64,000 nt of DNA from Photobacterium indicum. Lineage in GTDB: Bacteria > Pseudomonadota > Gammaproteobacteria > Enterobacterales > Vibrionaceae. Both the position numbers and the translations under genes were made by a program. Below, one piece after another: positions 13,282-23,230 of the stretch (position 1 is its first letter; every line of letters starts with the position of its first letter). The stretch lies in the NCBI RefSeq assembly GCF_003026215.1, contig NZ_PYOC01000001.1, positions 744,001-808,000 on the forward strand, given 5' to 3'. The notes under the pieces are model-generated. The model saw only the letters and a program-made list of their open reading frames with translations, did not search any database and was not told the origin of the DNA.

Positions 13282-14064
13282 TTAAACAGCTATGGTCTCA
13301 GGCTGTAAATATTGCTGCCATGCATTTTGGTATAGGTTTAAAGACTCAGTTCTAAGTTTTTCTATCTGTGCTAATTCAAACTCAGAGATGTTACGTTCTT
13401 CTGTCATACTTGTGCGTTCGATACGTTGGATTTCTTCGTATATCTTGTGTTCAGCACCATTTTTTACCGTAGATATGGCTTCTAAGTGAAGTTGAACTTC
13501 TGCAATCACTTGGCTTTTTGGTAAGCGTACTAATAATTTAAAATCACGGTAGCCAGAAGCTGTCGGGCTTTTAAAGCGATTTTTAACCGCAACAACAGAG
13601 ACTTCTTTATTCAGCAATTCTAGTGATTGCATCAAACTCGGTATATCATTTGCTACTAATGAGCATCGTGCCAAATCGGTAATACGATGAGTTTCACCTT
13701 GTAACTCTGTCTTGATTTTTTCTTTAGCGCGTTCTTCTGATTTAACTGCTGGCACTAAAGCTTGAGTGTTTGAATGCAATGCTATCTCACGAGCCAGAAG
13801 ATCTAATTCTTGCTGGGCATGTGTTGCTGCATGATACAGTTGGTTAAAATTACTGTAAGGCTGGGTAATATTCTGTTCTGTCCAGCTATTGACGTTATAA
13901 AGGCCACTTAGGCTACGCTGAAAAGACTTTTTACCTTCTTGTGTTTGGTAAGGGGAAACTTCATAGTCAGAATCTGAATATTGAGGTAGTGGTGCAGCGA
14001 TCGAAGTACGACCGAAGACGATAAGGAGAACGAAGAAAGTACGAAGTACAGATTTCATGTGCAT
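13282..14064 (-). CDS. Secreted RelA/SpoT-fold (nucleotidyltransferase-like) protein, copy 1
   Basis: 260 aa with an N-terminal Sec signal (MHMKSVLRTFFVLLIVFGRT, cleavage near SIAAP), so it is predicted to leave the cytoplasm. Residues about 108-215 resemble the RelA/SpoT synthetase fold: a basic segment (SEERAKEKIKTEL), THRITDLARCSLVANDI with D130 at the metal-binding Asp, SGYRDFKLLVRLP at the GYR loop, AEVQLH with E189 at the catalytic Glu of E(I/V)Q(I/L)R, and KNGAEHKIYEE with H206. Family synthetases pyrophosphorylate guanosine nucleotides; whether this one does is unknown. A good ribosome site (AGGAG, 7 nt) precedes the start. It is a paralog of the next gene. Confidence 0.7.
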   Translation of the reverse strand: MHMKSVLRTFFVLLIVFGRTSIAAPLPQYSDSDYEVSPYQTQEGKKSFQRSLSGLYNVNSWTEQNITQPYSNFNQLYHAATHAQQELDLLAREIALHSNTQALVPAVKSEERAKEKIKTELQGETHRITDLARCSLVANDIPSLMQSLELLNKEVSVVAVKNRFKSPTASGYRDFKLLVRLPKSQVIAEVQLHLEAISTVKNGAEHKIYEEIQRIERTSMTEERNISEFELAQIEKLRTESLNLYQNAWQQYLQPETIAV

Positions 14065-14316: not shown

Positions 14317-15099
14317 TTAACTTACGGCCAATTTAGGCTGTAAATATTCTTGCCATACAGAGTGGTAAAGATGAAGTGACTGATTACGCAATTGTCTTAT
14401 TTTTGCTGACTCTATATCATTTAACTGACGATTATTTGCTTTAGCAGTACGTTCAATTGTTTGAATCTGTTCATATAATTGGTGTTCTTTACCATTTTTA
14501 ATATCAGATATACCCTCTAAATGAAGCTGTATTTCTGCAATATGTTGGCTGTTTGGAAGACGAACTAACATTTTTAAATCTCGATATCCTGATTTTGCGG
14601 GTTGTTTGAAACGGTTTTTCACTTCAACAATCGTCACTTCTTTACTCATAAGTTCAAAGGCCTGCACTAAACTACCTATGTCATCGGCAACTAAAGAGCC
14701 TCGTGCTAGGTCTGTTAATTTATGTACACTTCCATTTAATTCCGTTGCTATTTTATATTCGGCTCTGTCTCGTGATTTAATGCCCGGTGATGAAGCTCTT
14801 GTACCAGTCATCATCGACGTTTGTTGAATGAGTTGCTCTAATTCATGTTGAGCAATATAGGCTTGTTGATATAGAGAATCGAGATCATTCTGATCTTGCA
14901 CAATGTGCAGCTGCCTCCACGTTGGGATCGCATAGAGACCACTTAGCGATCCTTGGAAAGATTTTTTTGACTTCTGCGCTGATGAGGGAAGTTCGGATTC
15001 TGAATCGGTGTAATTAGGCAAACTGGCTGTAGCGATAGGGCTACGACCTAATACAAATAAAAGAACAAAGCAGGTGCGAAGTATAGATTTGGTACCCAT
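14317..15099 (-). CDS. Secreted RelA/SpoT-fold (nucleotidyltransferase-like) protein, copy 2
   Basis: 260 aa from the start at 15099 (MGTKSILRTCFVLLFVLG), chosen because AGGAG lies 7 nt upstream; the in-frame ATG at 15117 has no such site. A Sec signal peptide ends near IATAS. It is collinear with copy 1 and similar throughout: SFQGSLSGLY, VHKLTDLARGSLVADDI (D130), SGYRDLKMLVRLP, AEIQLH (E189), KNGKEHQLYE. Both metal/catalytic acidic residues of the RelA/SpoT synthetase fold are kept. The 252-bp gap to copy 1 and a hairpin suggest separate transcription. Possible roles are a secreted toxin or an envelope enzyme; none is proven. Confidence 0.7.
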   Translation of the reverse strand: MGTKSILRTCFVLLFVLGRSPIATASLPNYTDSESELPSSAQKSKKSFQGSLSGLYAIPTWRQLHIVQDQNDLDSLYQQAYIAQHELEQLIQQTSMMTGTRASSPGIKSRDRAEYKIATELNGSVHKLTDLARGSLVADDIGSLVQAFELMSKEVTIVEVKNRFKQPAKSGYRDLKMLVRLPNSQHIAEIQLHLEGISDIKNGKEHQLYEQIQTIERTAKANNRQLNDIESAKIRQLRNQSLHLYHSVWQEYLQPKLAVS

Positions 15100-15413
15100 T
15101 AAAGCTCCTGTATGCACATAACTTAGAAATTAAAACTGCCAAAGTGTGCTGGTTCGGATGAACAACATATCCGTGTACATAAGATATCTGTCTTCATTAT
15201 CTTGTTTCAATGGGTGAATTGATAAAATGAGAGGTGGTAATATTAAGGTTGTGACGTGCTTCCCATTGTGTATATTTTGAATGATTCATATCAGCTGAAA
15301 CTCCTATTAAGGTGTTACGAAATATGTAGTTCTTACTGATGCTCTTAACTTAGCTGTTACCATTGCTTAGTGGTAAACTAGCTTTGTTTCTTATTTCAAT
15401 AAATGGGTGAATT
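15100..15413. other. Intergenic region without recognised features
   Basis: About 310 bp between divergent genes. It presumably holds both promoters, but no operator, terminator or small gene is recognisable. Confidence 0.4.
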
Positions 15414-16936: not shown

Positions 16937-17938
16937 CTATTTTAGGGTGTAAGGAATACGAACAGTAAGTTGGAAGTCAGGGGCATCTGCTGTTAATCCT
17001 GCTGATGCACCAACATTGATAGTGGTATCACGGCTAACAGCATAGTTAGCACCTACAGAAAGGGAGTCTAGCTGTAAAACTTTTGCATTAAAGTTTTCAA
17101 CACCACTGACCTTTGATTTAAAGATTGTCTTGTGACTCAAGCCAAGGCTGAATGAGAACTTAGGGTTAACAGCAAAGCCCATACCGGCACCAAACGAAAT
17201 GGTATCGCCAAGGTCAATGGATGCTTTTGTTCCTGCTAAATCAACATCATCTTCAATATTCCAGATATAGCTCGTATTCATGTAAATCACAGCAGGATCG
17301 ACTGGCATTATCATCGTTAAGCCAGGCTCTATGCTTGGAAAGCCTGAACCTGTTGGCAAATCATCAGGTGAACCTTCATAAGGTGAGTCGCCTGTTGTGC
17401 TTTTGAAGCGTAAACTACCTATCCAATAAGGGGCGGTATTCATATTGAATTGGTATTTAAACCCCGCCTCAATGTCACCTAAACCATTTCCATCTAAATC
17501 AATTAATATATCTTCGTCTTGTCCTATACCAGCAGAACGCTCTGAAATAGAGTCGCTTCTATATACCCAAGGGATTCGCACCTCTACTTCAAATCGGTTT
17601 GTTATGCCGTAACGACCAGATAGACCAAATGTTATTGTTGTTCTATCAATATCACTCGCTTGTATTAACCCTACAATTAAAGAGGGTAATACCGAATAAC
17701 CAACAACAGAGATCGTATTTGATGAATTTTGCGTATAAGACAGTGAGGAATCAATAACAAATGACCCCCTTGGTGTTAAGACACCTGGCTGTTCAAAAAT
17801 GTCAGCAACAGTTTGAACTCGTTTAGGTTTTTCTTCTTCAGCATTTTTACTAGGTTCTGTTTCCTCTGCTGCAATAACGGCTGCGTTAGAACATAAAGCA
17901 AGAAGCGCAATCAGGCTTTTATATTTGAATTCTTTCAC
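16937..17938 (-). CDS. FapF-like outer-membrane beta-barrel protein
   Basis: 333 aa. The start is taken as the GTG at 17938 (VKEFKYKSLIALLALCSNAA), with GAGGA 5-6 nt upstream and a signal peptide ending near VIAAEE; a longer frame begins at 18004. After a charged linker comes VADIFEQPGVLTPRGSFVID, then alternating beta strands with VGYSVLPSLIVGLIQ, YGITNRFEVEVRIPWVYRSD and a final strand ending in FQLTVRIPYTLK. This pattern resembles FapF, the secretin-like barrel that exports Fap amyloid subunits in Pseudomonas. It is divergent from the subunit genes, unlike the single Pseudomonas operon. The fap assignment is inferred from memory of the family. Confidence 0.65.
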   Translation of the reverse strand: MKEFKYKSLIALLALCSNAAVIAAEETEPSKNAEEEKPKRVQTVADIFEQPGVLTPRGSFVIDSSLSYTQNSSNTISVVGYSVLPSLIVGLIQASDIDRTTITFGLSGRYGITNRFEVEVRIPWVYRSDSISERSAGIGQDEDILIDLDGNGLGDIEAGFKYQFNMNTAPYWIGSLRFKSTTGDSPYEGSPDDLPTGSGFPSIEPGLTMIMPVDPAVIYMNTSYIWNIEDDVDLAGTKASIDLGDTISFGAGMGFAVNPKFSFSLGLSHKTIFKSKVSGVENFNAKVLQLDSLSVGANYAVSRDTTINVGASAGLTADAPDFQLTVRIPYTLK

Positions 17939-18313
17939 GATTTCCTCACTTCGGTACAAAGGTAGTCCATAAAAAAGTGTAAGTTGGTAACAAAATAATA
18001 CCAAGCAATATAAAAAGAGTAGTAGATGATAAGTTAAGCTGTTAATTATTTGTCTCAGAATAATGTCTTATATATGAGATGAGCATGAATCAGTCTTATA
18101 AGTAATAAATGTAATGTTTATGAGTTGCTGTTTTTTTAATTGGAAGAGTTAATATATAAATTGCTGGAATTAATATTAAGTTTTTATATTTAAAAACATT
18201 TGAAGTTATCAAAAATAATACAAGGTTATAATTTTACAACACTACTATTAAGTTATCTCGCAGCACATTGCGGGTAACAATAAAAAAACAACAAACATAT
18301 TTGGAGTAACACT
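17939..18313. promoter_or_regulatory. AT-rich divergent promoter region of the Fap-like locus
   Basis: About 375 bp, very AT-rich, between the FapF-like gene and the first subunit gene. It must contain divergent promoters. No sigma-54 (GG-N10-GC) promoter or clear palindrome stands out. AAACATATTTGGAGTAACA directly before the 18314 gene recurs before the 19586 gene. Confidence 0.4.
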
Positions 18314-19003
18314 ATGCGTAAAACTAATCTCGCACTTCTTGTGGCAGTTGTTGTTAGTTCACCAATAGCTTTAGCTAATTACTATCCACCGGCACCTGTT
18401 AATTCAGGGAATGACAATACAGACATTTATAAAAACGATGTTGGTAATAAAGACATTGACATTGATAAAGAAGATAGTCATGACCTTTATGTTGATGTTG
18501 ATGATTCATTTAATCATGAATCGAACTACGACACTACAACAGATACTGAGACAAATTATACCAAAAATATTAGCCGTGATTATGATAATGACACATTGAC
18601 AATGAAGAATGTCAATAATGATGAGAGTTACTATAACCAAGACAATAGCGATAATAGTACAGTTTGGAAAGATACTCTTAATGTAACTGAAGATATTAGC
18701 TGGGATGTTAATTTAGAAGAGAACCATTATGTATCTACTTCTTATTTAAGTGGTTATGTTACTGACAACGAAGTGACATATGGTGGTGCATGTTGTGATG
18801 GTGATGGTGGCGGCTATGGTCATCGTGGTGGTTATAATGATGATGATGGTGGTATGGGTGGAGACTTCTTTGTTGACCAGTCTAACTCTATGATGGATTC
18901 ATTTAACGGTTCTTCTGGTATCAGCATGGCTGGTCAAAATGCGGGTAATAACTCAATGCTTCAGCAAAGTGCTAGCACAAATGCTGTTCTTGTTGGCTAT
19001 TAA
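18314..19003 (+). CDS. Secreted N/D-rich amyloid-subunit candidate 1
   Basis: 229 aa. The Sec signal (MRKTNLALLVAVVVSSPIAL, cleavage near ALA-NYY) is followed by a low-complexity region rich in Asn, Asp, Ser, Thr and Tyr (about 35-140), then VTYGGACCD with adjacent cysteines (about 154-162), a Gly/Asp-rich segment, and a C-terminal SGISMAGQNAGNNSMLQQ motif. It shares all these blocks with the 19586 product (DNDTLT-KN, DNSDNS, GGACCD, AGQN-GNN). The composition and Q/N motif resemble Fap-type amyloid subunits, but this is not a clear FapB or FapC. A GGAG ribosome site precedes the start. Confidence 0.6.
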   Translation: MRKTNLALLVAVVVSSPIALANYYPPAPVNSGNDNTDIYKNDVGNKDIDIDKEDSHDLYVDVDDSFNHESNYDTTTDTETNYTKNISRDYDNDTLTMKNVNNDESYYNQDNSDNSTVWKDTLNVTEDISWDVNLEENHYVSTSYLSGYVTDNEVTYGGACCDGDGGGYGHRGGYNDDDGGMGGDFFVDQSNSMMDSFNGSSGISMAGQNAGNNSMLQQSASTNAVLVGY

Positions 19004-19047
19004 GATAATTACTGAGGATTACTTGGTGTAATTCTCAGGAGGATGTT

Positions 19048-19380
19048 ATGAAATATTTAACACTGATAGTTGCAGTATTAATTACTTGTAGTGCTGCTGC
19101 AGATGAGTTGGATATTCTAGCAAGTTCTGAAATGCTAAGCGATACATCAATGAATCAATCTCGTGGCGGTCAATATGAGTTGAACATAGATGTAATGCAT
19201 GCTGAATCAGACATGTACGGTGATGTTCAAGGAAATGGTGCCTACAATAATACGACAGGTGCCAATATGATAACTGAGGGTGCATTTGGTGAGTCATCTG
19301 GTATTTTTAATGTAGTTCAAAATACTGGTAATAATGTTCTTATCCAAAATGCAACAGTAGTGAACTTGACGTTGAAGTAA
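19048..19380 (+). CDS. Small secreted protein with RGG pro-segment and QN motif
   Basis: 110 aa. The Sec signal (MKYLTLIVAVLITCSAA) is followed by a short segment ending LSDTSMNQSRGG (about residues 31-42), which fits the double-glycine leader pattern LSxxELxxIxGG. The C-terminus has SSGIFNVVQNTGNNVLIQNA, the same QN-x-GNN motif as the large subunits. A strong AGGAGG ribosome site lies 45 nt after the previous gene, so they are probably co-transcribed. It may be a minor or nucleating fibre subunit matured by the C39 peptidase encoded at 20380. The function is inferred from context. Confidence 0.55.
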   Translation: MKYLTLIVAVLITCSAAADELDILASSEMLSDTSMNQSRGGQYELNIDVMHAESDMYGDVQGNGAYNNTTGANMITEGAFGESSGIFNVVQNTGNNVLIQNATVVNLTLK

Positions 19381-19397
19381 GCTGTTAGCGTATCTAA

Positions 19398-19422
19398 GCT
19401 GACATATAAAGAATATGTCAGC
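19398..19422 (+). terminator. Intergenic hairpin after the small RGG protein gene
   Basis: GCTGACATA-TAAAGAA-TATGTCAGC, a perfect 9-bp stem without a T run. It may protect mRNA or partly terminate. Confidence 0.4.
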
Positions 19423-19585
19423 GACGACTCTACAGACCACTAATTAGGGGTTGTTTTATAGGGACTAACATCATCACTTAATACATGATTGCTTGTTTAT
19501 AATTAGCATTGTGTCGAAAAGATATAAATAATAAACCCTATGTTTAAGTTATTACAATAATAAATAACATATTCGGAGTAATATC

Positions 19586-20215
19586 ATGCGTAAATCAAAT
19601 ATCGCACTATTAGTAGCAGTTGTATTCGCATCACCACTAGCATTAGCTGTTACACAAGACAGTAATAATACCATTAAAGTAATAGAAGATTCTTATAATA
19701 CGGATGTTGATGTTGATAAGGTAGATAGCCATGACAAAGACATCTATGTGACTAATGTTGGCAACACTGAATACAATGATACGGTAGATTATACAGACGA
19801 AACTAATACTGAAATCGATAAATCAAGTACTTATGATAACGATACATTAACCTTGAAAAATATTGGTAATGATAGAAGCGTTTGGAAACAAGATAATAGT
19901 GATAACTCGATGAATTCGACTTATGACACTACGATGGACTACTCTGAAGCTTGGGATGTTAACATCGAGATCGATACGTATATGTCGGCTGCTGAGTTAG
20001 ATGGTGCAGTTATGGGCTCAAATGTGACATATGGTGGTGCATGCTGCGATAGTGGAAAGAGTGGTTCGGGGGGAGATTTCACTGTTAATCAAACCAACTC
20101 TATGTCTAACTCTTTTGGCGATGCCTCTGGTATCAGTATTGCGGGTCAGAACGTAGGTAATAACGCGTTGGTACAGCAAACTACAAGTACAAATGCGGCT
20201 TTGGTTTCTCCTTAG
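19586..20215 (+). CDS. Secreted N/D-rich amyloid-subunit candidate 2
   Basis: 209 aa and a paralog of the 18314 product. Sec signal MRKSNIALLVAVVFASPLAL; Asn/Asp/Thr-rich central region (about 25-130) with DNDTLTLKNIGNDRSVWKQD and DNSDNS; VTYGGACCDSGKSG (about 145-158); then FTVNQTNSM and a C-terminal SGISIAGQNVGNNALVQQ. It lacks the longer Gly/Asp segment of its neighbour. Even the 5' leader (ACATATTCGGAGTAATATC) parallels the first gene, pointing to tandem duplication with the small RGG gene in between. Probably a fibre subunit; the role is inferred. Confidence 0.6.
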   Translation: MRKSNIALLVAVVFASPLALAVTQDSNNTIKVIEDSYNTDVDVDKVDSHDKDIYVTNVGNTEYNDTVDYTDETNTEIDKSSTYDNDTLTLKNIGNDRSVWKQDNSDNSMNSTYDTTMDYSEAWDVNIEIDTYMSAAELDGAVMGSNVTYGGACCDSGKSGSGGDFTVNQTNSMSNSFGDASGISIAGQNVGNNALVQQTTSTNAALVSP

Positions 20216-20233
20216 TCAATATAGCTATTTGTT

Positions 20234-20251
20234 AAGGGCCTTAGGGCCCTT
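20234..20251 (+). terminator. Hairpin between subunit 2 and the C39 peptidase gene
   Basis: AAGGGCC-TTAG-GGCCCTT with a weak following TATTAATTT. It may reduce read-through from the abundant subunit mRNA into the peptidase gene. Confidence 0.45.
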
Positions 20252-20379
20252 ATTAATTTCCCAAAATTGTTACAAATGAGACAAAAATATTAATCAATTA
20301 GTTAATACTTGAAATATAAATACATTAAATAAATTGTATGTTAAACACTACGATTTGTTTGAGCATATAACATAATGGT

Positions 20380-21060
20380 ATGTTTATGAAAACGTCTCTG
20401 TTTATTATTGCTGGCTTTTTTCTTAGTTCATCAGTTTTTGCTCTCGATTATTTTCCGAGTAGAGGTGCATATAATGTCAAAGTTAAAAGTTACCAAGAGA
20501 AAGTTTTTGGCGATGTGCAAAGGCAACAATATGACTTTAGTTGCGGTTCTGCGGCTGTTGCATCTTTATTAACTTATCATTATGGTTTAGAAACATCCGA
20601 AAATACTGTATTTGAATATATGTTCAAATACGGAGATAAAGAAAAAATAGAGCAACAGGGTTTTTCCATGCTAGATATGAAAAAATATCTGGAAGCTCAA
20701 GGGCTAACGGCAAATGGATATAAGTTACCGTTAATGAAATTAAAGAAATTAGGCGTTCCAGGTATTACAATTGTAAACTTTGATGGCTATATGCATTTTG
20801 TTGTAATAAAAGGTATGAATAGCAGTCAAGTTATACTCGGAGACCCCTCTCGGGGTACACTAACAATGGATATCGATGATTTCGAAGCTGGTTACAAAGG
20901 ATTAGTATTATTAGTTAAGAATAACGTTAAAGTTGGCAAAGAAAGTTTCATAAAACAAGAAAATTATAGTGTTTACACGCCCTCTCCTGTTTCAGAGGCT
21001 GTAACTAGAGAATCACTTGCAACCTTTAGTATTACTCTACCTGGGGCAAATGATTATTAG
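20380..21060 (+). CDS. Secreted C39-family cysteine peptidase (FapD-like)
   Basis: 226 aa, possibly 224 from the second ATG at 20386 (MKTSLFIIAGFFLSSSVFAL), with a Sec signal. The domain at about 35-190 has the C39 triad: Cys in QQYDFSCGSAAVASLL, His in GYMHFVVIKG, Asp in LGDPSRGT. The order and spacing match C39 peptidases, which cleave after double glycine in bacteriocin and related leaders; a C39 protein (FapD) is part of Pseudomonas fap operons. Here it is free and exported rather than fused to an ABC transporter. It sits between genes for small secreted proteins whose pro-segments end in RGG, its likely substrates. A tail of about 40 residues follows the domain. Confidence 0.75.
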   Translation: MFMKTSLFIIAGFFLSSSVFALDYFPSRGAYNVKVKSYQEKVFGDVQRQQYDFSCGSAAVASLLTYHYGLETSENTVFEYMFKYGDKEKIEQQGFSMLDMKKYLEAQGLTANGYKLPLMKLKKLGVPGITIVNFDGYMHFVVIKGMNSSQVILGDPSRGTLTMDIDDFEAGYKGLVLLVKNNVKVGKESFIKQENYSVYTPSPVSEAVTRESLATFSITLPGANDY

Positions 21061-21068
21061 AGGCTAGT

Positions 21069-21569
21069 ATGAAAAAAACATCAAAATGGTTTTTTGCATC
21101 TGTAATAGGAGGTGCGGCCTTTTGGGCTAGCGCATCAATAAATCACGAAACTATAGATGATTTTGGTTTACTTACAATGAGTGAAACTGAAATGTCATCG
21201 ATAAGAGGTGGTTTCGTATCCATTAATGATACATTAATTAATATTGGATTATCTATCTCGACAGCGCTAAATGGCGAAAAGGTATTTACCTCCTATATTG
21301 CAGATCTAACGATAGATAATGGGGTGCTAACATCCTCTTCATCATCAGCTAAACCTGTAAGTGTAGTCCAAAATGGTGAAGGTAACACAGCACCAGAAAC
21401 GATAAGTATTGATACTGGTAGTATCGCGAGTATTATTCAAAATACAAGTGACAATACAACGATACGAGTAGAAACTCAGTTAGATATACAGGCTGATGTG
21501 AATAGCTATCTTGAAAGACAAGTTATTAACAATAGAATAGAGAATTCTATATTGTATTCTTCTTATTGA
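21069..21569 (+). CDS. Secreted protein with double-glycine pro-segment, co-transcribed with the C39 peptidase
   Basis: 166 aa, starting 8 nt after the peptidase stop. The N-terminal signal (MKKTSKWFFASVIGGAAFWA) is followed by MSETEMSSIRGG (about 37-48), which matches the classic LSxxELxxIxGG leader at nearly every conserved position. The remainder is Ser/Thr/Asn/Ile-rich with two Q/N motifs (VVQNGEGNT, IIQNTSDNT) like those of the other subunits. It is a candidate FapE- or FapB-like minor component processed by the neighbouring peptidase. It is not a recognised family to me; assignment is by motif and context. Confidence 0.55.
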   Translation: MKKTSKWFFASVIGGAAFWASASINHETIDDFGLLTMSETEMSSIRGGFVSINDTLINIGLSISTALNGEKVFTSYIADLTIDNGVLTSSSSSAKPVSVVQNGEGNTAPETISIDTGSIASIIQNTSDNTTIRVETQLDIQADVNSYLERQVINNRIENSILYSSY

Positions 21570-21600
21570 TTGAAATTATTATGGTTCGTACAATTGAAAT

Positions 21601-21634
21601 AAGGCATGGTGATTTAATTACTGTGCCTTTTTTG
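21601..21634 (+). terminator. Terminator of the peptidase-subunit operon
   Basis: AAGGCATGGTGAT and ATTACTGTGCCTT pair into a 13-bp stem with a few G-U pairs, followed by TTTTTT. Confidence 0.75.
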
Positions 21635-21853
21635 TTGTTTTCATTATGCCGATAGTGTTGCTGATTAAAATATTCATAATTTATTATAAATTAGAGGAAC
21701 TTTTAAAGTTGAATAAGTCTCTGATTTAGTAGGTCTATTTTTAATGTTGATTTATATGTCACATAAATAGGCGGTTTAAGAGTCATTTTCTTACTTCTGA
21801 TACCCTACATACGTGTCATTTATTGCCTATATTCTTAATACATTAAAAATAAT

Positions 21854-23230
21854 ATGTACATTGATAGCGTGGTGATTTCGATGGTGACTCAATCTAAAAA
21901 TAAATCAATAAATGGTCGTCTTGTTGCAATTGGTTGTAATTATGAACCTTGGATTGCGCTTCTTGAACAATCAGGATGGAAAACACATTGTTGTTATGAT
22001 CTTAGGACAGCAGATTCAATACTAGAAGAGTACAGCCCATGCATATGCATTGTTGATTTAAGCAATAACGATTTTAGCTTAAATAGTATTTCTTTGAGGG
22101 CAAATAAAACTAAGCAAGTACGTTGGATTGCGTTAATTAAAAATGAGCAGCTAGAAACGGATGCTATCTGTCAGTTTATTAATAATTATTGTGTCGATTA
22201 CTTTTCAATGCCGATACCTAGCACCTTACTCTTAGACACTGTCGGACATCAACTTGGTATGCTTGAGATAGAAGCAAAAACTTGGGTTGAGGTAACGTCA
22301 CAGCACGATATGGGACTGTATGGTGACTCTAAATCGGTAAAGCAACTTCGTGATATGGTTAGACGTGTAGCATCAACAGAAGTGAATGTTTTTCTTACTG
22401 GTGAAAATGGTACAGGAAAAGAACTTATCGCGAAATCAATTCATAATTTGTCTAAGCGTAAAAATGCACCTTTTATTAATGTTAATTGCGGCTCACTAAC
22501 ATCAGATGAAGAGAAAATTGCATTTTTAAATTCGGCAACAAAACTTCATGATGATGAAAAGCCCAAATTTAATGGTACTATTTTACTCGATAATGTTGAA
22601 GAATTGTCAAAAGAACTACAAGATGAATTGTTAAGATATTTACAGGCACCTGCAGGGGAGTCTATAAATGAAGACGTAAATTGCGATATACGTATAGTCG
22701 TTTCATCAAGTGCAGATCTTGAAACTGCAGTAGCTAACGGTGAATTTAGTAAAGAGCTCTACTATCGCTTGAATGTGTTCCATATTAAAGTGCCGACTCT
22801 TAGAGAGCGTGGTTCTGATATTTATCTTTTAGCAGAAAAGTTTTTAGGTCAATTTTCTAATGAATATAATACTTTAGCATCGAGTTTCTCTGAAGACTCT
22901 AAGCAGTTACTCTTACGCTATAGTTGGCCTGGTAATGTAAGAGAGTTAATGAATCAAGTAAAGCGTGCAGCATTGCTTGCTGAGGGTAGCGAAGTAAAAG
23001 CTGAGCATTTTGATTTGCCAAGTAAATCTAACCTTAAGCAAAGCTTGCGTAATATTAAAGATGAAGCGGAAAAAGATGTATTAGTCGCTGTACTTGAAAC
23101 ACACCGTGGTCAAGTTGCTTCAGCGGCCAAAGATCTGGGTGTATCTCGCGCTACTATGTATCGTCTATTAAATAAACACAATATAGTTCCTGATGTTCGA
23201 TATTATAATAATGGGCAAATGGGTGAATAG
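21854..23230 (+). CDS. VpsR-like NtrC-family transcription regulator lacking the GAFTGA loop
   Basis: 458 aa. A degenerate receiver-like domain (about 20-140, CICIVDLS at the phospho-Asp position) is followed by an AAA+ domain (about 155-395) with Walker A GENGTGKE and arginine region YYRLNVFHIKVPTLRERGSDI, and a Fis-type HTH (QVASAAKDLGVSRATMYRLL). The L1 loop GAFTGA that contacts sigma-54 is absent (NSATKLHDDEKPKFNG instead), and Walker B is GTILLDN rather than D-E. VpsR, the c-di-GMP-responsive biofilm activator of V. cholerae, shows the same losses and works with sigma-70. Its location suggests control of the Fap-like genes. The start could be the ATG at 21881; neither has a clear ribosome site. 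Confidence 0.75.
   Translation: MYIDSVVISMVTQSKNKSINGRLVAIGCNYEPWIALLEQSGWKTHCCYDLRTADSILEEYSPCICIVDLSNNDFSLNSISLRANKTKQVRWIALIKNEQLETDAICQFINNYCVDYFSMPIPSTLLLDTVGHQLGMLEIEAKTWVEVTSQHDMGLYGDSKSVKQLRDMVRRVASTEVNVFLTGENGTGKELIAKSIHNLSKRKNAPFINVNCGSLTSDEEKIAFLNSATKLHDDEKPKFNGTILLDNVEELSKELQDELLRYLQAPAGESINEDVNCDIRIVVSSSADLETAVANGEFSKELYYRLNVFHIKVPTLRERGSDIYLLAEKFLGQFSNEYNTLASSFSEDSKQLLLRYSWPGNVRELMNQVKRAALLAEGSEVKAEHFDLPSKSNLKQSLRNIKDEAEKDVLVAVLETHRGQVASAAKDLGVSRATMYRLLNKHNIVPDVRYYNNGQMGE

Follow-up and report, generated by a model that had tools for sequence, protein, structure and literature searches.

A conserved C39-type leader behind the Sec signal of the FapE-position protein in a Fap-like operon of Photobacterium indicum

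The window analyzed here is a 64,000-nt stretch of the Photobacterium indicum contig NZ_PYOC01000001.1, and coordinates are counted from its first letter. Positions 16937-23230 hold a Fap-like locus, i.e., a minus-strand barrel gene followed by six plus-strand genes (named here by their first coordinate), including a stand-alone C39 cysteine peptidase resembling FapD (20380) and, directly behind it, the gene in FapE position (21069). C39-type leader tags are normally read inside the cell. For this Fap-type operon, we favor the reading, at a probability of about 0.72, that Sec export is followed by a periplasmic cut of a second, C39-type leader by the FapD-like peptidase, which would free a FapE-type starter of FapF-mediated export. 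The 21069 protein and, less surely, the 110-amino-acid 19048 protein would be exported by Sec and lose their signal peptides. The second leader, hydrophobic at positions -15, -12, -7 and -4 relative to the cut and ending in R-G-x, would be the part recognized by C39. The periplasmic peptidase would dock on this segment and cut after R-G-x, i.e., before Phe49 in 21069 and before Gln42 in 19048. A minor or starter component would thus be released that lets the FapF barrel export the asparagine/glutamine (N/Q)-rich proteins.

The original prediction for this DNA had described the open reading frames (ORFs) 19048-19380, 20380-21060 and 21069-21569, the first and last of them encoding a Sec signal and a pro-segment ending in RGG, and this description was borne out. 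It had also held that both segments fit the bacteriocin leader consensus, which applies fully to MSETEMSSIRGG of the 21069 protein and only partly to the 19048 protein. C39 leaders are bound via hydrophobic residues at -4, -7, -12 and -15 (PMC7018657) and end in GG, GA or GS (PMC7018657, PMC10885120; published work is cited from excerpts throughout). The 21069 product carries hydrophobic residues at all four positions plus GG, as in C39 double-glycine substrates. Among 36 distinct Vibrionaceae leaders of this family, which were picked by R[AG]GF alone, hydrophobic residues occupy -15, -12, -7 and -4 in 88, 94, 100 and 100% of the sequences, compared to at most 16% at the other twelve positions. 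At the level of sequence, this register is the strongest single evidence that the 21069 segment is a C39 leader.

The window's stop-to-stop frames (30,804 positions) were scanned with a model trained solely on 19 distinct leaders from Vibrio and Thaumasiovibrio. The 21069 leader ranked first with 21.4 bits and the 19048 leader second with 18.3 bits, while the third position reached only 10.8 bits. In 500 shuffles of the window frames, the best score averaged 11.3 bits with a maximum of 18.4 bits; 18.3 bits was reached once and 21.4 bits never. A smaller control of 40 shuffles considered only positions with Gly at -2.

Conservation was followed in 43 Vibrionaceae loci, i.e., the window and 42 loci with the peptidase from a GTDB scan (Photobacterium, Vibrio and Thaumasiovibrio), several of them near-copies. 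The peptidase and a 21069-type gene were present in 43 of 43 loci, the barrel gene and the 110-amino-acid gene in 42 each, both misses falling on one 3.4-kb contig (L032). The 21069-type proteins carry RGGF in 42 of the 43 loci and RAGF in one (Vibrio sinensis). R46, G48 and F49 are the sole invariant residues among residues 2-56 (20 aligned sequences), and an INIGLSI block after RGGF is conserved as well. Among 197 Vibrionaceae genomes, a stand-alone FapD-like gene (120 bits or more; gene lists matched by hand) was found in 49 and a full-length 21069-type gene in 48, all of them within those 49. In each of the 48, both genes share a contig and are no more than about 1 kb apart. The lone genome without this partner (G159) holds only a Pseudomonas-type FapD, and in another (G003), which lacks the peptidase, 53 residues match the C-terminal part of the 21069 family. 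The anticipated co-occurrence of the RGG pro-segment with the C39 gene was thus confirmed in 48 of 49 genomes. The anticipated conservation of RGG held for the 21069 family, whereas only 34 of 42 members of the 19048 family keep it.

The 20380 peptidase matches the Pfam C39 domain PF03412 with 79.8 bits (cut-off 22). Its best NCBIfam match is FapD (NF058616) with 138 bits, below the equivalog cut-off of 330, and FilB scores 109 bits (cut-off 475). The nearest FapD-like proteins, from P. profundum and P. frigidiphilum, are 97-98% identical to it. In agreement with the intact Cys-His-Asp triad described for this signal-bearing C39 protein, C55, H139 and D155 are invariant in 19 aligned peptidases and reach at least 98% conservation across 116 sequences from two clades.

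In the 19048 protein, LSDTSMNQSRGG fits the leader consensus in part. Ser replaces E at -8 and I at -4, and -15 is Ser; with hydrophobic residues at -12 and -7 alone, the full C39 register is absent, while GG is present. In the alignment, the family shows RGG in 34 of 42 members, RGK in 5, and RGQ, RGT and RAG in one each. The leader and a C-terminal QN motif are shared with the 21069 family (profile probability 96% with the leader, 60% without). The 110-amino-acid protein was also considered as a FapA homolog and rejected, with a profile probability of 0.5% and no match to the FapA hidden Markov model (HMM), which gave no hit at E 0.1, either in the window or in the related loci; fapA is often lost in known Fap operons, too (PMC3792158). 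The N/Q-rich proteins 18314 and 19586 form one family by HMM. They were rejected as leader carriers, since the GG they do have, in the motif YGGACC, is located far from the N-terminus (12 family proteins). In a comparison with 39 Pseudomonas FapC sequences, the profile probability was 3.3%, and the weakly aligned region coincided with a repeat. V[TK]YGGACC, an internal motif with paired cysteines, is common to the N/Q-rich proteins of several Photobacterium species. The suggestion that cleavage would release fiber-forming proteins was overstated: the 21069 protein takes the place of FapE, which is reported to be a minor component of the fibers, and the N/Q-rich proteins lack this leader.

Comparable segments were found beyond the Vibrionaceae. 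In the GTDB class of the window, FapD-like genes at E 1e-20 or better were located at 50 sites in 43 of 369 genomes (counting the window's own). Of these sites, 41 were examined as loci; the window is one of the remaining nine. In all 29 loci scoring from about 137 bits upward (L045-L073), the gene product following FapD has a segment ending in R-G, 15 times RG[RK] and 14 times RGG. In Aeromonas caviae, LRGRY follows FapD. In Cupriavidus metallidurans CH34, RGG occurs in the proteins flanking FapD on both sides. Counterparts of the 110-amino-acid protein outside the Vibrionaceae are more variable, with the endings RGM, RAM and RAK. At the other 12 loci (L074-L084 and L104), no FapE-position ORF was found at 10 bits. 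In one FapE-position protein (L067:5649-6866, minus strand), the end of the RGG segment is preceded by about 285 residues comprising a membrane-anchor-like part and a long coiled-coil-like stretch, and the leader looks as if it separated two modules.

For Pseudomonas, 148 Pseudomonadaceae genomes were recognized by OprF; 44 places in 43 of them exceed the FapD cut-off, and 40 of the 44 were examined. At 40 of 40 loci, the FapE-position protein carries [LM]RG[RK] followed by Y or F, the fourth residue being R in 34 cases and K in 6. The segment covers residues 39-50 in the 39 sequences given a start; the FapE of L132 was kept in the 40-locus counts and left out of the start, profile-comparison and register tabulations, as was the FapA of L147 from the register tabulation. 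A model built from 34 Vibrionaceae leaders scored the FapE-position ORF above all 696 others at 40 of 40 Pseudomonas loci. At the 29 other gammaproteobacterial loci, the same model gave 10 bits or more for 25 of 29 FapE-position ORFs vs. 4 of 494 others. The four low-scoring FapE-position proteins carry R-G as well, and three of the four high-scoring other ORFs lie upstream of FapD and have a FapA- or 110-amino-acid-like look (L045, L046 and L065). Candidate ORFs were defined mechanically (90 amino acids or more, a crude signal rule, FapF excluded) and include chance frames. Judged from the sequences collected, the leader register and R-G are universal, unlike the double glycine.

Related segments also occur in other proteins of such loci. 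FapA is present at 40 of 40 Pseudomonas loci, 39 of which show a loose ELSDxDFAxVxSG block; the free -4 position of this block is hydrophobic in all 34 distinct sequences. A second Pseudomonas C39 gene (20 loci) and a barrel gene are directly preceded by a FilA-like Sec-type protein, whose segment ends in GQ in 18 of 20 cases. Nearly all of these segments read [LM]DDxxLxx[VI][TS]GQ, e.g., MDDSALSGVTGQ, with hydrophobic residues at -15, -12, -7 and -4 (L148-L166 except L150), and A. baumannii FilA carries MDDAALSAATGQ. In all groups of the register tabulation except the Vibrionaceae FapE-position one, the search patterns fix -7 and/or -4 in advance (for FapA and FilA also -12), the unbiased positions being -12 in FapE, -15 in FilA and -4 in FapA.

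The relation between the 21069 family and Pseudomonas FapE appears to be confined largely to this segment. With the leader, hhalign gave a probability of 96.3% and a pairwise E-value of 1.5e-9 (hhalign pairwise E-values are uncalibrated), with RGGF aligned on RGRY. The mature parts alone reached 0.4%, near the column-shuffled controls (0.1-0.5%). Because the alignment collapses once the leader is removed, what the two families share is, as far as their profiles tell, mainly the leader. Homology of the mature halves is unsupported, as the probability falls from 96% to 0.4%. It looks as if the leader had been kept on unrelated-looking mature halves for the sake of an enzyme.

In a quick-search tree of 64 FapD sequences, with tip labels for the type of P1 (the residue before the cut) given locus by locus and that of L101 confirmed afterwards, two sides were separated with an SH-aLRT support of 100, and the window-type clade is the sister of the Pseudomonas FapD clade. 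One Vibrionaceae genome (G162) holds both systems (L086 and L099), with MRGK↓Y beside one FapD and YRGG↓F beside the other (arrows mark the predicted cut); its window-type FapD is identical in the tree to that of Vibrio maerlii.

In Pseudomonas, FapD is exported by Sec and works in the periplasm as a C39 peptidase; FapC secretion depends on its Cys38 and is abolished in the C38A variant (Rouse et al. 2017, PMC5557850). By analogy, periplasmic C39 activity and a need for it in secretion would be expected here. FapE was named as the likely FapD substrate, with FapF as the proposed alternative target (PMC5557850), and a 2025 review still names both FapE and FapF as presumed FapD substrates (PMC12822426). 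By mass spectrometry (MS), FapE alone lacked N-terminal peptides, over about 70 residues (PMC5557850).

Several observations weigh against leader cleavage by the FapD-like peptidase. In the same MS data, peptides of FapA-D were seen throughout their lengths (PMC5557850). Reported C39 cuts follow GG, GA or GS, unlike the R, K, Q or T found at P1 in many of the homologs: Gly never occurs at this position in the 40 Pseudomonas FapE sequences, and 7 of 42 proteins of the 110-amino-acid family have K, Q or T. In the latter family, Ser stands at -4 in most members, and hydrophobic residues are nearly absent at -15. P1 switches between G and R/K once, on the branch between the FapD clades. Because the change happened a single time, the match between P1 type and FapD clade may reflect plain ancestry, not repeated co-adaptation. 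No acidic specificity residue was found in FapD of the R/K clade, which mostly has R135 and K138 instead; an acidic S1 pocket as explanation for Arg or Lys at P1 was rejected in view of these clade-specific residues beside the active-site His. At 10 bits, a FapE-position ORF was found in 0 of 32 more distant C39 loci, and the non-aligning mature halves weaken the case, built on sequence comparison, that 21069 is FapE by descent.

Among the alternatives, the most serious, though unlikely, is that the segment is a docking element only, i.e., that FapE-type proteins are recruited through binding of this helix by FapD or FapF while the peptidase acts elsewhere, e.g., on FapF, its proposed alternative target (PMC5557850). 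The better conservation of the register than of GG would suit docking, as would R, K, Q and T at P1, which are odd for C39. A docking element would have no need of GG, yet the motif is retained in 42 of 43 Vibrionaceae loci and in all 14 loci with same-clade FapD examined elsewhere plus Cupriavidus, and Pseudomonas FapE seems to lose its N-terminus (PMC5557850). It is considerably less probable that RGG is conserved for the structure of the mature protein or as a sorting signal, with another periplasmic protease, or none, acting on it. The invariant Phe after RGG and the conserved INIGLSI block speak for such a role, whereas the hydrophobic residues stand at the same four positions as in published C39 leaders, and like segments occur in FapA- and FilA-type proteins of other stand-alone C39 loci.

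Least probable of all, and close to negligible, is that these are ordinary double-glycine peptides handled by a cytoplasmic C39 ATP-binding cassette (ABC) exporter, the stand-alone peptidase being unrelated to them. The same genome does contain a second C39 match (32.9 bits, C35:315480-315863) in a 712-amino-acid open frame, about as long as C39 ABC exporters usually are. This match lies on a different contig. Moreover, both RGG proteins and the peptidase start with Sec-type signals, and 48 of the 49 genomes with the stand-alone FapD-like gene also have the RGG partner.

Cleavage of the leader by the FapD-like peptidase remains our preferred reading, in which the leader would be both docking and cutting site, the bond assigned in the R/K clade would be the one after RG[RK], and the cut would license secretion. 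A broader version is put forward tentatively, at somewhat less than even odds: all periplasmic C39 proteins (FapD, the window clade and the FilB type) might read the leader code of peptidase-containing ABC transporters (PCATs), here placed after a Sec signal and tolerating Arg, Lys or Gln instead of Gly at P1. The two RGG proteins of the window would be their substrates together with FapE ([LM]RG[RK]↓[YF]), FapA (VxSG↓) and FilA (VTGQ↓), and Sec-then-C39 maturation would be a general export checkpoint of barrel systems.

The initial observation is real and better supported than the original prediction could know. The route of Sec export followed by GG cleavage gained from the conservation of RGG and its co-occurrence with C39; it needs amending in that GG is not universal, and it has partly been proposed in print. 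A free periplasmic C39 peptidase in a Fap-like operon was rejected as a novelty, since FapD had been described and FapE suspected as its substrate (PMC5557850). Excerpts of PMC5557850 and PMC6173800 describe Fap proteins as lacking a canonical C39 sequence and the FapD substrate as undetermined. In titles, abstract openings and passages, with most subscription papers outside reach, no Fap, Fil or C39 paper was found that names the recognition segment. The window clade presents a near-canonical C39 leader in FapE position, and its alignment with Pseudomonas singles out a FapE bond near residue 40. The question of the FapD substrate is therefore reduced to a testable one-bond prediction. A cut after Arg or Lys may also explain why trypsin-based MS missed a new FapE N-terminus, because the next tryptic peptide is short, with 6 residues in 7 of 8 FapE sequences, among which the strain of the MS study was not identified.

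The features of the locus are listed in Table 1; Sec signals were assigned by eye and by a crude hydrophobicity rule.

Table 1. Features of the Fap-like locus in the window.
Feature	Position	Strand	Remarks
FapF-like outer-membrane beta-barrel	16937..18004	-	NCBIfam FapF NF058560 159 bits (cut-off 700); FilC 62 bits (cut-off 630)
N/Q-rich protein, Sec-exported	18314..19003	+	C-terminal Q/N motif; FapB/C-like by position
110-aa Sec-exported protein	19048..19380	+	leader and one Q/N motif
Leader core LSDTSMNQSRGG of 110-aa protein	19135..19170	+	residues 30-41; fit partial
Second N/Q-rich protein	19586..20215	+	no leader seen
FapD-like stand-alone C39 cysteine peptidase	20380..21060	+	226 aa; Sec-type signal
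Catalytic Cys55 codon	20542..20544	+	
Catalytic His139 codon	20794..20796	+	
Catalytic Asp155 codon	20842..20844	+	
FapE-position Sec-exported protein with candidate C39-type leader	21069..21569	+	166 aa; starts 8 bases past the peptidase gene
Leader core MSETEMSSIRGG of 21069 protein	21177..21212	+	residues 37-48; predicted cut before Phe49
VpsR-domain enhancer-binding regulator	21854..23230	+	Pfam VpsR 163 bits, Sigma54_activat 120 bits

The VpsR-domain protein is a possible regulator of the operon; its gene is present at 21 of 21 Photobacterium loci and at 0 of 22 Vibrio and Thaumasiovibrio loci, some of which are on short contigs. Because the enhancer-binding protein BrfA, which senses cyclic di-GMP, controls fapA in P. 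fluorescens (PMC13101488), control of the Photobacterium operon by cyclic di-GMP is plausible by analogy. Sigma-54-like -24/-12 sites were not in excess across the window (52 vs. 56 expected). Behind the 110-amino-acid gene, the intergenic stretch holds a perfect 10-base inverted repeat with a 5-base loop, seen by eye at 19398-19422 and lacking a T run. Elsewhere in the window, two related minus-strand ORFs (13282-14064 and 14317-15117) have signal-like N-termini and a weak, below-cut-off match to a RelA/SpoT region; a secreted pair of this type would be odd.

Among known systems, Fap of Pseudomonas shares with the window a Sec-exported stand-alone C39 peptidase with the catalytic Cys, His and Asp, a FapF-type barrel, and a FapE-position gene directly after FapD whose leader register agrees at -12, -7 and -4. 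It differs in that the window FapD belongs to a sister clade and the window proteins score far below the NCBIfam equivalog cut-offs (138 vs. 330 and 159 vs. 700), that the predicted leader end is RGG↓F instead of RG[RK]↓[YF], and that the window has no FapA match. The PCATs ComA, LahT and PCAT1 agree with the window, in the published excerpts, in the catalytic residues of C39 and in leaders that are hydrophobic at -15, -12, -7 and -4 and carry GG, whereas the window C39 stands alone (226 amino acids, no ABC fusion) and both enzyme and putative substrates bear Sec-type signals; no ABC exporter was found among the ORFs listed around the peptidase gene. The Fil system of Acinetobacter (FilA-FilB-FilC) likewise places a stand-alone C39 gene beside a barrel gene, and the FilA-like segment follows the same register; in contrast, the window proteins match FilB and FilC below the cut-offs (109 vs. 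475 and 62 vs. 630), and the Fil segment ends in TGQ, not RGG.

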